The notes beneath the pieces were generated by a model, which searched no databases, was not told the DNA's origin, and saw only the letters and a list, made by a program, of their open reading frames with translations. Positions 121 through 5,356 of a DNA stretch of 7,999 bases are shown here, in pieces (positions within the stretch are counted from its first letter, which is position 1; every line of letters starts with the position of its first letter). The position numbers were made by a program, and so were the translations under genes. This DNA is from a bacterium (lineage in GTDB: Bacteria > CSSED10-310 > JAJRTK01): contig JAJRTK010000286.1 of the NCBI GenBank assembly GCA_024278345.1, positions 1 to 7,999 of the forward strand, read 5' to 3'.

Positions 121-215
121 ACCCTTTGTTTTCTACGTGTTACGTTCCCCTCCGTCCGCCGCTGGTCGCCATCATCGCCGCTCTCGCTATCCACTGCCCT
201 AAGGCCGAAGCACCA
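121..215 (+). repeat. Diverged dispersed repeat, copy A
   Basis: This 95-nt pyrimidine-rich segment is related in the same orientation to 6858-6967. Both copies begin with accctttgtt and end with ccactgccctaag followed by a similar ccgaagcacca-type end; the last 25 nt agree at 23 positions. The middle is diverged, and copy B is 15 nt longer. Both copies can be read as a short peptide sharing PLF and a HCPK-like stretch, which could mean a decayed coding element, but there is no Shine-Dalgarno site and no credible complete gene. The stretch 216-311 between this copy and the next element shows nothing I recognise. Confidence 0.6.
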
Positions 216-311
216 CCCAAGAGTGCCGGTCAGCTCTATCCGGTGCCTGGTCATCGTTTTCCACCCTTCCAAATTCTTTGCGCACATCAGTTCCATCGGC
301 GTTTCGTTTCA

Positions 312-480
312 TCCCGGATTTCTCATCAAATCCCGTCGCGAGGCGGCGCAGCCGGCGAATCCGACGACAGGCAGGCACCGGAGGCGTAGTAGAACTACGT
401 TGAGGATGCCTGACCGGGGAGGGCGCTGTTTGCTGCGATGATTGCGTTGACGCAGCAGGGATTTGATGAGATTTCCGGGT
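312..480. repeat. Multi-branched (cloverleaf-like) inverted-repeat element
   Basis: Two arms, 313-334 and 458-479, are inverted copies of each other matching at 20 of 22 positions; the shared core is CTCATCAAATCCC. Between them lie three further self-complementary segments. The first pairs GTCG 335-338 with CGAC 362-365, with an inner CGGC/GCCG stem at 344-354. The second pairs CAGGCA 372-377 with TGCCTG 407-412, and inside that CGTAGT 385-390 with ACTACG 394-399. The third pairs TGCTGCG 431-437 with CGCAGCA 451-457. The first and third hairpins abut the outer stem without a spare base. The right arm ends immediately before the TAA (480-482) of the GH172-family gene, so its transcript would fold here and could end or be stabilised here. 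It could be a REP-like or MITE-like repeat or a structured RNA; sequence alone does not decide. Confidence 0.7.
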
Positions 481-2075
481 TAATGAGCTAAATAGTAGAA
501 AACCACTGATCGATAATCGTCTGCTTGTCCTGGGACATTGCCGTTCTCGAGCTCGAAGAGCAGACTCGAAGAGAAGGGAAGTAAATCTGGAACCATGAAG
601 CGATGGGTGTGAACATCCGGCCGGATTCGCGCTCCCCTTGACGTGAGGCCGTGAAGTGGATGGGTACGGAGGCCCCCTTCAAAAAACCAATGAGCGTTGA
701 AATAGTCCTCAGTTCCAGTTCCCTTGTAGCTGGTTGTTCCATCCACCGTGATGAACTCATCGCCTTCCAGGGATTGAGGATCGGAGCGCACGTCCACCAC
801 AAGTTGGCATCCCACCAGGTGCCCCGCTCCGGTCACGTCAGCCATGGTCAGCCGCCGACCGTCCAACACGGTGGCTTCCACAAAGTCGGCATGCAGGTAA
901 CGAACGTCTGAAGAGACCTCTCTTTCATCGTAGTAGACTCGGGCCGATACCGGCAGAGAACCACTTCCTTCCCATCGCAATTCTAGGCGGAGCGACTGGC
1001 GAAAGGGCAGAGGGAATCGAAGATAAAAACCGCCGTCCGGAGCCACGCCCTGCACCAGGCTAGAAAAACTGGCTCTGCTGAAGTGGTTGCCCCATGCCGT
1101 TCCCACGGGAACGTTGATCGCCGGTGACGATTCGCCGTCGTAGGTTACGCGGAACCAGAGCTTCTCCAGATCCGCGGCACTGGCATTCCCAGGGTAAAGC
1201 CTTAGGCCACGAACTACCCCGGGGCCAGCAAGCTCAGCCACGGAGCTCGTGCCGGAAACCGGGCCTGGAAACTCCGTCATTTGCGCCGCGACCGTCATAC
1301 CCTCCGCGAAGGCAACGGGGTTTCCCCACTCCTCCAACGCCTTTTGGAAGGCGTACTGATCCTCAGCGCTGAGACCTAGAGAGCCATCCGCTTGAAGGAT
1401 AGGCGATGGCTCGACGGATTCTTGTCCAGTGAGATCCAAAACGTTGACATGATAAAAGAGCCTGTCCACGGGAAATCGCGCTCCCGGCGGCAAGGGATCG
1501 GTGATCTTCACGACCACGGATCGTGAAAACGAGATGGGCACATAGCTATAAAAACCCTTGCCATCGGGCCACGGGGAATCCGCACCGTTTTCGTGTTGCC
1601 CTACCAACGGCGGAACGAAGGGCCAAAGATCCCCGGCGAAGAATCGGCTGGGACGGACAGCGATGAGCGGAGTCACCGAGCCATCGACATAAACTTTGAG
1701 GCGGGCGCCATCGTAAAAGCCCGGCCCGTTGCTCGAACGGCTCCCGGTTCTCGCTGTCATCCAGATCCGTGTGATGACCCCAGGGCCTTGATGGTCCACC
1801 ATCACGTAAGTATTGCCCGATTCCCGGCGAAGATACTGGTTGAAGTCGATATTTGCGGCGTCCCTGGGGTCGTGAGACGAGTAAAGCCGCACTGACCCCA
1901 CCTTTGGCTCCGCCAGTTGATCGATCCCGCCCAAAAGCCGATAACCCACGGAGGCTCTTGCCACCACTGGCGTGGGAGTGGGCGTTCCACCATTGCCGCC
2001 ATCATCATTGCCGCTTCCACAAGCCGTCAGCGCAAGCACCCCACCGGCGATCACCAGTAGACCCAGTTTCCTCAT
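480..2075 (-). CDS. DUF2961/GH172-family lipoprotein, putative glycosidase
   Basis: This encodes a 531-residue protein that I assign to the DUF2961 family, now glycoside hydrolase family GH172. Known members act on alpha-D-fructofuranosides, including difructose dianhydride, or on D-arabinofuranosides. A basic start and hydrophobic stretch lead to a lipobox, LTAC, with the lipid-accepting Cys at residue 19. A Gly/Asp/Asn-rich and Thr-Pro linker (20-38) follows, so it should be membrane-anchored. Two related segments, GPGVITRIW (97-148) and GPGVVRGLRL (284-330), each lead to a V-x-YDG/VDG strand, fitting the paired jelly-roll fold. The C-terminal signature is LEGDE (436-440) then GTGTEDYF (452-459); Glu437 and Glu456 are the likely catalytic pair. 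The protein ends DDYRSVVFYY, so it looks complete. I chose Met at 2075 over an in-frame Met at 2138 because it gives a compact lipoprotein signal and has AGGAAGGG upstream. It is last in a probable three-gene operon. The substrate is unknown. Confidence 0.85.
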   Translation of the reverse strand: MRKLGLLVIAGGVLALTACGSGNDDGGNGGTPTPTPVVARASVGYRLLGGIDQLAEPKVGSVRLYSSHDPRDAANIDFNQYLRRESGNTYVMVDHQGPGVITRIWMTARTGSRSSNGPGFYDGARLKVYVDGSVTPLIAVRPSRFFAGDLWPFVPPLVGQHENGADSPWPDGKGFYSYVPISFSRSVVVKITDPLPPGARFPVDRLFYHVNVLDLTGQESVEPSPILQADGSLGLSAEDQYAFQKALEEWGNPVAFAEGMTVAAQMTEFPGPVSGTSSVAELAGPGVVRGLRLYPGNASAADLEKLWFRVTYDGESSPAINVPVGTAWGNHFSRASFSSLVQGVAPDGGFYLRFPLPFRQSLRLELRWEGSGSLPVSARVYYDEREVSSDVRYLHADFVEATVLDGRRLTMADVTGAGHLVGCQLVVDVRSDPQSLEGDEFITVDGTTSYKGTGTEDYFNAHWFFEGGLRTHPLHGLTSRGARIRPDVHTHRFMVPDLLPFSSSLLFELENGNVPGQADDYRSVVFYYLAH

Positions 2076-2141: not shown

Positions 2142-3728
2142 TCAGCCCGCCCGCACTGGCGAAGCACCCGATTTCCCGAAAACCAGCAGTCCTCCCAAGA
2201 GCGCCAGAGCCAAGGCCAGTACCGGCCAACTCAATCCGGGGACCACGGGACCAAAGGTGATCCGGCTCACCCGGGCTTTCTGCACTGTTGCGTCGTAGTA
2301 GGCCACCCATAGGTTCTCGCCGGAAAAGGCGATGCCCAAACCCTCCGCATCATCGAAAACGATGGCCTCGCGACCGTCGGTCCCAACGCCGATATAAGGA
2401 AACGGGACACCCTCCGTCTTCACCCGTTCCAGTGACTTCTCGCCCGCAATGAGGTCATTCAAGCCGTCGCAATACAGGTCGCAACTGTCCAAAAGAGGAG
2501 TGCAATTGGGAGGCGTGGTCGCACAGCCAGGCTCTCCGCACACGCATAGCCCATCGAAATCCTGGCCATCTTCAAACTGCGTGGGCCACTCGGTTCCCGC
2601 GGGAACCGTGAGCACGATCCCAACATCCGTTAGCTGGAGACTGTCATCGAAGGTGCTGTCGATCCCATAAGCAACGGCTCGACGACCTCCCGCGCTGGCC
2701 GCCACATTGATCTCCTGCGTCGCGAATTTGTCTGACACATTGTCAAAGCCATAACGGTGTAGAATTGTGGGGCTGACGGACGCACGAGCCGTCGTCAACT
2801 CCGAAAAATAGAGATCCCGCCCCAGGAGCCCATCCAAGGCCGTGATGCCGTAAAGATCGAGGCGCGTCGAGCCAGGCCAGGGTTGGAGCCGCACTTTTCC
2901 CGGCGAAGACGGAATGTCAAAGGTCTGGCTTCCAGGCGTCCACGCGCCCGCGGTAAGACCTTCCCGCCGGGAATAGACCCCATCGTTCCGGTTTATCCCG
3001 AAAGTCCCCACCACCTGCGCCATCCCATCATCGGACACGGCAATGGCCAGGCCATTGCCGATGGGCGGGCCGCTCGCCTTCTCGGCTTGGCCGAAGCTGC
3101 TACTGCCGCTGGCCGCCCGGTAAACTTTGATCTGATTGTTGCCGCGGGACACATCGATGAAGGTGTGAGCAGCGTACACAAGACCGTCTAGGCCCACGGC
3201 AATAGCCACATCCTTGATCTCCCGGCCCAAGGTGCCAAGGTTGATGCTCCTGGTGACGACTCCTTGGAGGTTGGTTGCGGCATCGATCTGGACGAGAACC
3301 GGCCGAGTCGAAACCGTGAAATCGCCGGCAAATGTGACGTAGGCTCGCCCGGGAGTCGTGGGATCGGCTGCGATTTTCGGCTGGTTGACATCGACATTGG
3401 AACTTACAAGCGTCCCGCAACCTTCGCCCAGAAGAAGCGAGGGAAAATGCCAACTGTCATCGGCGGCCGTGTAGTGAAGATACCGGATCTCGCAGTAACC
3501 TTGGGGATTGTTTCCCGTTCCCGCACGCCAAACTAGGTGCAGGTCTCCATTTCCTTCCGCGGCCATGGACATATTGACTCCGACGCGGTCGAGGTCCAGC
3601 GTCTTATCGACGGTGGCGCCGAAGGCGGGAGAGAGGAAAAGCAAAAGCCACAGCATCCACCAAGCCCCTGTGAGGACGGGCTTCGTGCTTCTTCGATTCA
3701 TACGGTGTCGTTTCAGTCTCTTCTCCAT
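2142..3728 (-). CDS. Exported protein of unknown function, paralogue 2 (Cys-rich insert, sorting-like tail)
   Basis: This encodes 528 residues. A strongly basic start (MEKRLKRHRMNRR) precedes a hydrophobic run WWMLWLLLFLSP and an AFGA-type cleavage region near residue 38, so it is probably exported by Sec. The mature N-terminus (43-136) carries TLDLD, NGDLHLVWRAGTG, YCE, RYLHY, WHFPS, GCG, NQPKI, TPGRAY and FAGD. About two thirds of these residues are identical to the neighbour encoded upstream. Cys79 and Cys104 are shared and may form a disulfide. Residues 386-423 hold six cysteines (395, 397, 402, 409, 416, 420) that the paralogue lacks. The C-terminus (495-528) is VVPGLSW, a hydrophobic stretch, then Lys/Arg, resembling IPTL-CTERM-type sorting tails. 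The many short beta-type segments suggest a beta-propeller or similar fold, but I recognise no catalytic motif. AGGA lies 4 nt before the ATG; Met10 is an alternative start with no clear site. The gene starts 46 nt after its paralogue stops. Confidence 0.85.
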   Translation of the reverse strand: MEKRLKRHRMNRRSTKPVLTGAWWMLWLLLFLSPAFGATVDKTLDLDRVGVNMSMAAEGNGDLHLVWRAGTGNNPQGYCEIRYLHYTAADDSWHFPSLLLGEGCGTLVSSNVDVNQPKIAADPTTPGRAYVTFAGDFTVSTRPVLVQIDAATNLQGVVTRSINLGTLGREIKDVAIAVGLDGLVYAAHTFIDVSRGNNQIKVYRAASGSSSFGQAEKASGPPIGNGLAIAVSDDGMAQVVGTFGINRNDGVYSRREGLTAGAWTPGSQTFDIPSSPGKVRLQPWPGSTRLDLYGITALDGLLGRDLYFSELTTARASVSPTILHRYGFDNVSDKFATQEINVAASAGGRRAVAYGIDSTFDDSLQLTDVGIVLTVPAGTEWPTQFEDGQDFDGLCVCGEPGCATTPPNCTPLLDSCDLYCDGLNDLIAGEKSLERVKTEGVPFPYIGVGTDGREAIVFDDAEGLGIAFSGENLWVAYYDATVQKARVSRITFGPVVPGLSWPVLALALALLGGLLVFGKSGASPVRAG

Positions 3729-3774: not shown

Positions 3775-5295
3775 TCATCCCCCCAGCATGGAGAGTTTTT
3801 CCCTATTCGACAACAGCCCGCCCAGAGCCAAAAGGGCAAGAAGCATCGCCCAAAACCTCATCTCGGGGACCGAGGGTGTGGGAGGCGGAGGAAGAATGTT
3901 GGGAAGAAAAACCTCCGTCAACCGGGCGCGGCCCACCACCTGATCGTAATAAGCAATCCAAAGCCTCTCCTTGGAAAAAGCCACCGTGGGGCACTCGGCT
4001 GAATCCAGCACCACCAAAAGGCGGCCGTCCGCTCCCGGCACGATGGCCGGAAGCCTCCCATCACCGCGAAGCCCATCCAGGGAATCGATCCCCAACCCAT
4101 CATTGAGTCCATCGTCATCGACATCGACAAAACCCAGGGGCCAACTCGATCCTATGGTCGTGATCGCCACAAGCCCAAGATCGTTCCGCTGCTCCCACAG
4201 CGTTCCGTCGATGCCATAGACGAGAGCGATTCGGCCACCGGCGCTCGACGCGATCTCAAAATCGTCAGTGGAGAAGCGATCACCGCCTCCCAGAAAGTTG
4301 TTGTTAAAGGTGTAGCGGTGGAGAAGCGTGGTCGTAAGGTCCGTGCGTGTCCCATCGTAGCGCGTGTACACAAGTTCCCAGGTCAAGTAGTCGGGAGGCA
4401 GTGCCACCCGCAAAAAGAGATCGAACTCTGCTCCACCGGCGACGGGCTGCACGCGCAACTGGTTCAGTCCCTTGTACGCGGCACCGGACGAATCCAGAAA
4501 CCGGAGGGCATTGGGTCCGGGAGTCCATGCACCTCCCGATATGCCATCCCGTCGCGAATAGACGCCATTCTTGTTGAAAGTCCCGAAAACCCGGGCACGA
4601 CCATCTTGGAGCTCCAGGAGATCGAGCCCCTTGCCAACCCCCGTCGAACCCGTGGCCTTTTCCTGGAAAAATTGCGTGCCCCCCGTTGCTCCACGAAAAA
4701 TGTTGATCCGGTTTTTCGAGACTCTGGGGAAAATCCACAGGTAGCCGACGTTGACCATTCCCGTGGGGCCAACCGCCAGATCGATGCCCTTAATTTCAGT
4801 GGTCCGCTGGCCGAGACCCAAGGTCCGGGTCACAACGCCCTGAGGAACAAGCTCGGTATCGACCTGCACCAACGTCGGCTGCGTGAGGCGGGCGATGTCC
4901 CCCGCAAACGCAATATAGGCCCTTCCCGGGGTCGATGGATCCACAGAGATCTTGGGCTGGTTCCAGTCGATCCGCTGGCTAATCAGCGATCCGCAGCCAT
5001 TGGCCACCAAAATCGACGGAAAATGCCAGGTATTGTCCGCCCGCGTATAATGAAGGTAGCGAAGCTCGCAATAACGCCCGGGATCGCCGCCGGTTCCCGC
5101 CCGCCACACAAGATGAAGATCTCCGTTCGCTTCGGAGTCCATGGCGAAATTGACCCCCGAAATATCGAGGTCGAGGGTCGTGCCAAACGACTGAGCTCGG
5201 ACGTTCGACGCCATGGCTCCCCAGAAGACCATTCCCAGAAGCAAACCAAGTGGAAATAGCGGTCCAGCTACTTTCGACCTCTTTTTCGCGCTCAT
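3775..5295 (-). CDS. Exported protein of unknown function, paralogue 1 (DxDxDG motif, sorting-like tail)
   Basis: This encodes 506 residues. MSAKKRSK, a hydrophobic stretch (11-29) and a likely cleavage NVRA/QS after residue 34 form a typical Sec signal. The mature protein opens with TLDLD, GVN, NGDLHLVWRAGTG, YCELRYLHY, WHFPS, GCG, NQPKI and TPGRAY, shared with the next gene; similarity continues through KNGVYSRRDG, GAWTPG, LLHRYTF, SAGGR and LWIAYYD. Residues 391-400 read DVDDDGLNDG, an Asp-rich loop like calcium-binding DxDxDG repeats. The end (467-506) is a proline-rich spacer, SVPEMRFW, a hydrophobic segment, then NREK, resembling an envelope-sorting tail. I chose Met at 5295 because GAGAGG lies 6 nt upstream and the signal peptide follows at once; an in-frame ATG at 5340 would add 15 residues. 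It is probably the first gene of the operon with its paralogue and the GH172-family lipoprotein. The family is unrecognised and no enzymatic residues are apparent. Confidence 0.85.
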   Translation of the reverse strand: MSAKKRSKVAGPLFPLGLLLGMVFWGAMASNVRAQSFGTTLDLDISGVNFAMDSEANGDLHLVWRAGTGGDPGRYCELRYLHYTRADNTWHFPSILVANGCGSLISQRIDWNQPKISVDPSTPGRAYIAFAGDIARLTQPTLVQVDTELVPQGVVTRTLGLGQRTTEIKGIDLAVGPTGMVNVGYLWIFPRVSKNRINIFRGATGGTQFFQEKATGSTGVGKGLDLLELQDGRARVFGTFNKNGVYSRRDGISGGAWTPGPNALRFLDSSGAAYKGLNQLRVQPVAGGAEFDLFLRVALPPDYLTWELVYTRYDGTRTDLTTTLLHRYTFNNNFLGGGDRFSTDDFEIASSAGGRIALVYGIDGTLWEQRNDLGLVAITTIGSSWPLGFVDVDDDGLNDGLGIDSLDGLRGDGRLPAIVPGADGRLLVVLDSAECPTVAFSKERLWIAYYDQVVGRARLTEVFLPNILPPPPTPSVPEMRFWAMLLALLALGGLLSNREKLSMLGG

Positions 5296-5301
5296 CGTGA
5301 A

Positions 5302-5307
5302 CCTCTC
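5302..5307 (-). promoter_or_regulatory. Ribosome binding site for paralogue 1
   Basis: On the minus strand GAGAGG lies 6 nt before the ATG at 5295, a normal spacing. It selects this start over the in-frame ATG at 5340. Confidence 0.6.
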
Positions 5308-5356
5308 ATGGCGTCGCTTGGGAATTGGGATGCACCACAAAGCATCTTAGCAACGC

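Follow-up and report, generated by a model that had tools for sequence, protein, structure and literature searches.

The interior of a bacterial MITE is usually viewed as leftover filler. Bacterial MITEs named in PMC3733652 include RUP, NEMIS, ERIC, Nezha and others, and the element described here is like them in being 70-300 bp long and palindromic, in having terminal inverted repeats (TIRs) and target duplications, in lacking an open reading frame (ORF) and in occurring in many copies. However, these MITEs are described from one species or group, whereas the interior of our element covaries across about eight phyla and occurs within several TIR types. REP/REPIN sequences and the GTAG/CGTC palindromic repeats (PMC3116915, PMC3733652) are also intergenic, folded and high in copy number, occur in several phyla and include single-ended units. 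REPs measure 20-40 bp, carry a GTAG or CGTC tag and, in the case of the GTAG type, are linked to RAYT genes; unlike them, our element is ~170 bp long, shows exact 5-bp duplications and has an IS1380 TIR. The HEARO/omega-RNA of IscB and the TnpB guide RNAs resemble it as ~150-nt structured single strands that are tied to transposons and cross phyla, but our element differs from them in having no Rfam match and no ORF found beside or inside its copies.

With the IS1380-family insertion sequences (IS), e.g. that of Pseudomonas putida/Stutzerimonas (WP_034018616), the element shares the TIR CCCG[C/G]nnTTCTCA[C/T], a short target duplication (4-bp CTAG for the plasmid IS, 5 bp for the element) and insertion flanks rich in CTAG/CTWAG. 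It differs from them in being 167 bp long and gene-less, and comparison by eye indicates that the plasmid IS ends have only the TIR in common with it. As an IS1380 MITE the element belongs to a known kind; it is the cross-phylum, strand-specific structured interior that sets it apart. It is this interior that has been conserved between phyla. It covaries as well as one would expect of a riboswitch or ribozyme, and the transposon ends that it bears vary from lineage to lineage.

The element at positions 313-479

The window, i.e. the whole stretch of 7,999 nucleotides that was analysed, contains at positions 313-479 a 167-bp palindrome, oriented with its GGAGG strand on the + strand. Its outer arms (313-334 and 458-479) pair at 20 of 22 positions, and our recomputation agrees in this with the original prediction. 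The left TIR, CCCGGATTTCTCAT (313-326, + strand), is of IS1380 type, with pairing running on to 334, and the right TIR lies at 466-479 (- strand). What had been read as the closing stem of a cloverleaf corresponds to the paired TIRs of a MITE of IS1380 type. Adjoining the ends are the target duplication copies TTCAT (308-312) and TTAAT (480-484), an imperfect duplication with one mismatch, the right copy of which overlaps the stop codon (480-482) of a minus-strand DUF2961 gene (PF11175, E 8.5e-50). We take this to be the gene that the original prediction called GH172. The folding energy of positions 300-490 is -95.9 kcal/mol for the + strand (z -6.7) and -82.3 kcal/mol for the - strand (z -7.1); none of 200 dinucleotide shuffles was as good on either strand, which bears out the claim that the order of this stretch exceeds that of random sequence.

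Inside the arms lies an outer internal-loop motif, conserved on its left side (CCGTCGCGAGGCG, 333-345; family consensus TTCGTCGCGAGGCGG) and on its right side (GACGCAGCAGG, 449-459; family consensus CCGCCGCAGTAGA), followed by a middle internal loop (GACGACAGG at 363-371, family consensus ACAAGGC; GAGGGCGCTG at 419-428, family consensus GACGCAG), all on the + strand. Further inwards on the same strand are the arms of stem P3 (CAGGCA, 372-377; TGCCTG, 407-412), which covary across phyla, and the cross-phylum core CCGGAGG-CGTAG...CTACG-TTGAGGA (378-406), with its G.A/A.G mismatches, near-invariant G.U and single-base bulges. Our covariance model R1 matches positions 366-418 (+ strand) with 59.6 bits.

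The hairpins that had been described at 335-347 (hairpin 1) and 439-457 (hairpin 3) are present, as is the stem CGTAGT/ACTACG (385-399) inside CAGGCA/TGCCTG. The cloverleaf drawn from them is not the conserved form, as the pairs of hairpins 1 and 3 are formed in 65% of cells, compared with 62% in shuffles. Elements are typically 167-176 bp long, this copy having 167 bp and its siblings 173-178 bp; it is without ~9 nt that the siblings possess just after position 345, within hairpin 1, and can for this reason be drawn with a side hairpin, i.e. as a cloverleaf. The sibling copies fold as a single long interrupted hairpin. No promoter-like site, terminator or T-run was seen in window positions 200-620, which is weak evidence against the functional fold proposed below.

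Two other features of the window may be mentioned. Positions 1-120 hold a different dispersed repeat (CCAGGGAGCTCGCTCCCTGG; GTCCCGCCTTGCGTGGATACCC), and similar sequence interrupts four element copies (L061, L063, L071 and L078), being followed in L078 by sequence like the 5' end of a group II intron. Two adjacent long genes on the minus strand (2142-3728 and 3775-5340), of ~520 aa each, are apparently related paralogues, and neither has a Pfam match.

Conservation of the interior across phyla

At least 48 stretches of GTDB genomes contain CCGGAGGCGTAGT...ACTACGTYGAGGA (378-406), the core of the central hairpin, in records assigned to Planctomycetota/Phycisphaerae, Deltaproteobacteria and Desulfobacterales, Acidobacteria, Fermentibacteria, Gemmatimonadetes, Bdellovibrionales, Gammaproteobacteria and Actinomycetota. 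Its consensus, drawn from metagenome-assembled genomes (MAGs) of about eight phyla, is CCGGAGG-stem-TCGAGGA, flanked by AAGGC/AACGC loops, and the stems adjacent to the core differ in sequence between the GTDB stretches with their pairing retained. When 46 representatives were compared, the 17-pair core structure was formed in 90% of cells (72.5% when shuffled, 32-41% when slid), and 137 cells were doubly changed against 43 in shuffled data. The inner stem CGTAG/CTACG is swapped for CGTAC/GTACG, CGTAT/ATACG, AATAC/GTATT or CGGGG/CCCCG and still pairs; the G.U recurs in 45 of the 46 representatives, and the core contains adjacent G.A and A.G mismatches as well as single-base bulges.

Matches to R1 occurred in 29 of the 386 genomes sampled and were spread over bacteria; one of these genomes, G269, is a complete one and has two copies. 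Most carriers of the element are MAGs, for which misbinning could inflate the phylum count; however, 24 of the 330 genomes with at least 90% completeness were R1-positive, and matches in these good-quality genomes of different families argue against misbinning. End-to-end alignment of 21 full-length elements with CCCG-type ends, originating from many lineages, gave as consensus one long hairpin of 53 pairs, with double compensatory change in 40 of them. These pairs are formed in 94% of cells (77% when shuffled, 35-48% when slid), and the doubly changed cells number 175, against 52 in shuffles. Given these changes and 41 matches in the window's own genome, the element is not the single copy devoid of compensatory change that the original prediction had named as the case counting against it. 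Three internal-loop modules are near-invariant, namely TTCGTCGCGAGGCGG/CCGCCGCAGTAGA, ACAAGGCG/GACGCAG and the core, and the loop pair AAGG + A[AC]CGC is found in 58% of clusters and, on the other strand, in 0%. The Rfam search that had been proposed (4227 families, covariance models) matched neither the element nor the window to any family, even at E<=1, and the full-text literature covered, to which subscription journals do not belong, yielded no description of the core, of the TIR or of a cross-phylum structured MITE family.

Different ends surround the same core in different lineages. Copies from Phycisphaerae/Planctomycetota have GGACC... ends and 3-bp TWA duplications, those of WY2.bin34 (G073) have ends GAACCTATCTC..., an end found in G073 also on another small element without the core, and in Olavius endosymbionts the terminal stems of the copies are variable; the interior has thus travelled in transposons of more than one type. 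The second small element of G073 (L251 2006-2260, L244, L246, L248) has the GAACC..ATCTCAAAAATAT ends of the core copies and a different, core-less interior that holds a long GAACCTTTTATTCATAAAAGGTTC palindrome. Searches for the core in named phages and plasmids gave no match or matches at chance level (22-32 bp), and the viral contigs searched included one clear carrier (L150, IMGVR_UViG_3300009788_000048). This contig has two core elements, at 9137 and 13726, 4.6 kb apart; a tyrosine-recombinase-like ORF lies immediately downstream of the first, and an apparent DNA methylase is encoded between the two elements. In another genome (G065; L172 980-1380 and 1443-2381), two core elements, one of which has the variant stem AATAC/GTATT, abut an N-terminally truncated RAYT gene.

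The folded strand and its possible role

In alignments that score every kind of mismatch equally, and for single mismatches flanked by Watson-Crick pairs only, the helices contain 172 G.U and 27 A.C when read on the GGAGG strand. The ratio is 13:1 when counted by sequence cluster and, by region, 104:8 in the interior and 30:11 in the terminal repeats. A wobble count over whole arms shows no strand bias (150:128), because unpaired loops are included in it. Since a G.U reads as A.C on the opposite strand, neither a cruciform nor passive palindrome correction explains the asymmetry. The GGAGG strand would be the folded one, and RNA and single-stranded DNA (ssDNA) both fit.

We consider it quite likely that the element joins a MITE moved by IS1380 to a functional one-strand fold in its interior. 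The interior would fold single-stranded on the GGAGG strand, as one long hairpin with the three conserved internal-loop modules, and would be maintained by selection and held in common by different phyla, in part within elements having other terminal repeats. The covariation, the wobble asymmetry between strands and the invariant loops are observed; they point to selection and to a putative trans-acting partner. The folded strand may be a short RNA of the element's own or ssDNA arising during mobilisation, and on the most likely reading a protein binding to it would help the element to spread or persist. The fold itself probably does something, because the one-strand interior is conserved with matching base changes in about eight phyla.

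The alternative with most in its favour is an ordinary MITE, in which the palindrome has no active role and what looks like covariation reflects template-switching symmetry together with recent amplification of copies. Mutation by the correction of quasi-palindromes is well established, and the copies of one genome are in many cases closely related to each other. Palindromic MITEs of bacteria are also well known (PMC3116915, on REPINs; PMC3733652). However, correction predicts equal numbers of G.U and A.C on a given strand and not the 172:27 found, it cannot make the unpaired loops CCGGAGG/TCGAGGA and AAGGC/AACGC the most conserved parts across phyla, and covariation persists between phyla, all of which leaves this account improbable in our judgement.

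Beyond the IS1380-moved MITE with a functional fold, a bolder reading is offered tentatively, its chances being somewhat short of even: an undescribed one-strand RNA/ssDNA module with a widespread protein partner would ride on MITEs of several unrelated transposon families in at least eight phyla. The parts of such a module, proposed with the same reserve, would be the CCGGAGG-stem-loop-stem-TCGAGGA core and the AAGGC/AACGC and GCGAGGCG/GCAGTAGA internal loops. If this is true, DNA transposons would in effect be parasitised by a structured RNA or ssDNA. Should the fold act as RNA or ssDNA, gene-less elements would have a means of spreading or being tolerated that has so far gone unrecognised, and a class of structures present in ~7% of the genomes sampled would be missing from Rfam.

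Copies, mobility and the IS1380 link

The window's genome (G000) comprises 6.06 Mb in 550 contigs and is 87.9% complete. Its 41 BLAST matches are full or partial copies, ~22 of them at about 90% identity and another group at about 70%, and the terminal repeat CCGGAnnTCTCATCAAA occurs, with at most 2 mismatches, in 140 places (4 for the reversed control). Subfamilies in this genome reach 400 bp, other repeats having inserted into them. Among 58 TIR pairs scanned, which include some chance pairs, a 5-bp target duplication was exact in 15 and had one mismatch in 7, against a background of 0.7% exact and 3.8% with one mismatch when flank partners were shuffled; in the same scan of G000 no signal beyond chance appeared at 4 or 6 bp. 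Examples of the duplications are CTAGA, CTTAG, TCTAA, TCAAA and TTTGA. The window element is a mobile multicopy MITE: it is short (<400 bp), its TIRs pair, it has no ORF of its own, its target duplication is of fixed length and its TIR is common to an autonomous insertion sequence.

This TIR, of ~14 bp, is likewise found at both ends of IS1380-family insertion sequences from named plasmids. Searching the outer part of a related repeat, AGCCCGCATTTCTCACCAG, against plasmids retrieved ends in which CTAG precedes CCCGCATTTCTCAC ... GTGAGAAATGCGGG and CTAG follows. These CTAG-flanked ends enclose the same IS1380-annotated transposase (NF033539, E 8e-122) in Pseudomonas putida pKF715A and Stutzerimonas zhaodongensis; CTAG-flanked ends also surround a related IS1380 transposase on a plasmid of Bradyrhizobium sp. 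CB82, and Bradyrhizobium sp. 62B has an end pair at similar spacing without an annotated transposase. In G000 itself, contig C239 starts with a remnant of an IS1380 transposase, its C-terminal part (NF033539, E 1.1e-21), followed after ~180 bp by ATGAGATATTCGGG and then CTAAA; ATGAGATATTCGGG is the right end of several copies, e.g. L030 and L068. Genome G297 encodes a full-length IS1380 transposase with a right end as in C239. The related repeat AGCCCGCATTTCTCACCAG is very abundant, being present in 229 places in G297 and 333 in G064. Duplications of 5 bp are also generated by IS1380 members such as ISEcp1, which are able to act from a single end, and one-end use of this type would fit the single-ended terminal repeats of G297.

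An IS1380-family DDE transposase would thus recognise the ~14-bp TIR and leave the 5-bp target duplication; repeats, duplications and matching insertion sequences are all observed, and from them we infer transposition by the IS1380 enzyme. On this sequence evidence, such a transposase probably moves the window MITE in its genome. IS1380 transposase was found in 10 of 30 element-bearing draft genomes, and the other terminal repeats of several lineages imply that IS1380 is not the sole mover. No autonomous copy, sought as TIR pairs 0.5-5 kb apart with a gene between them, was found in G000, G060 or G073, and none of the 20 half-core sites examined had acquired an ORF in the loop of its core hairpin. 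A 1.8-kb TIR pair in G077, considered as an autonomous copy, proved to be two separate copies around an imuB-like gene. The work provides a usable covariance model as well as named IS1380 systems in culturable bacteria.

The strand-specific fold, the high copy number and the single-ended terminal repeats would also suit a REPIN-like element mobilised by a Y1 (RAYT) transposase and moving as single-stranded hairpins. Y1 transposase genes are present in 15 of 20 element-bearing genomes, and the truncated RAYT gene of L172 adjoins two elements; however, a Y1 match is absent from the other five (G066, G068, G071, G073 and G076), the RAYT gene of G064 is bordered by inverted flanks, GGGGTCAGATCTTTAATGTT, that bear no relation to the element TIR, and the exact 5-bp duplications together with TIRs common to IS1380 point to a DDE enzyme, so that we give mobilisation by Y1 very little credence.

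The original prediction was right to set a mobile repeat against an RNA, and the 5-bp duplications show mobility; the structured 3' end of a gene was not borne out. It was also right that the element, ending at 479, abuts the stop codon, but this boundary is an insertion site and not the gene's 3' end, because copies show no preference for gene orientation (++13, --16, -+11 and +-9 among 49 copies with callable neighbours). The copies are likewise unbiased with respect to local GC skew. A cis-acting 3'-end RNA of the DUF2961 gene (terminator or mRNA stabiliser), which the abutting stop codon and the strong fold might suggest, is highly improbable given these 49 copies, the location of the window copy on the strand opposite the gene, the lack of a T-run and the insertion shown by the duplications; the element does not serve as a cis-element for its neighbour.

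Some copies have themselves received insertions or been joined to one another. The G000 copies L084 (2904-3303) and L077 contain an insertion of another palindromic repeat, which has the ends GGGACCTATCA...TGATAGGTCCC, and the core hairpin loop in four copies of the same genome (L073, L079, L083 and L091) contains an extra G/C-rich insert, e.g. GGGTGGGTTGAAAACCCCACC, from which it follows that this loop tolerates insertions. Head-to-tail dimers of the element occur in L139/L225, L130 and L287 (Olavius Delta 4 endosymbiont, Pseudodesulfovibrio, G255).
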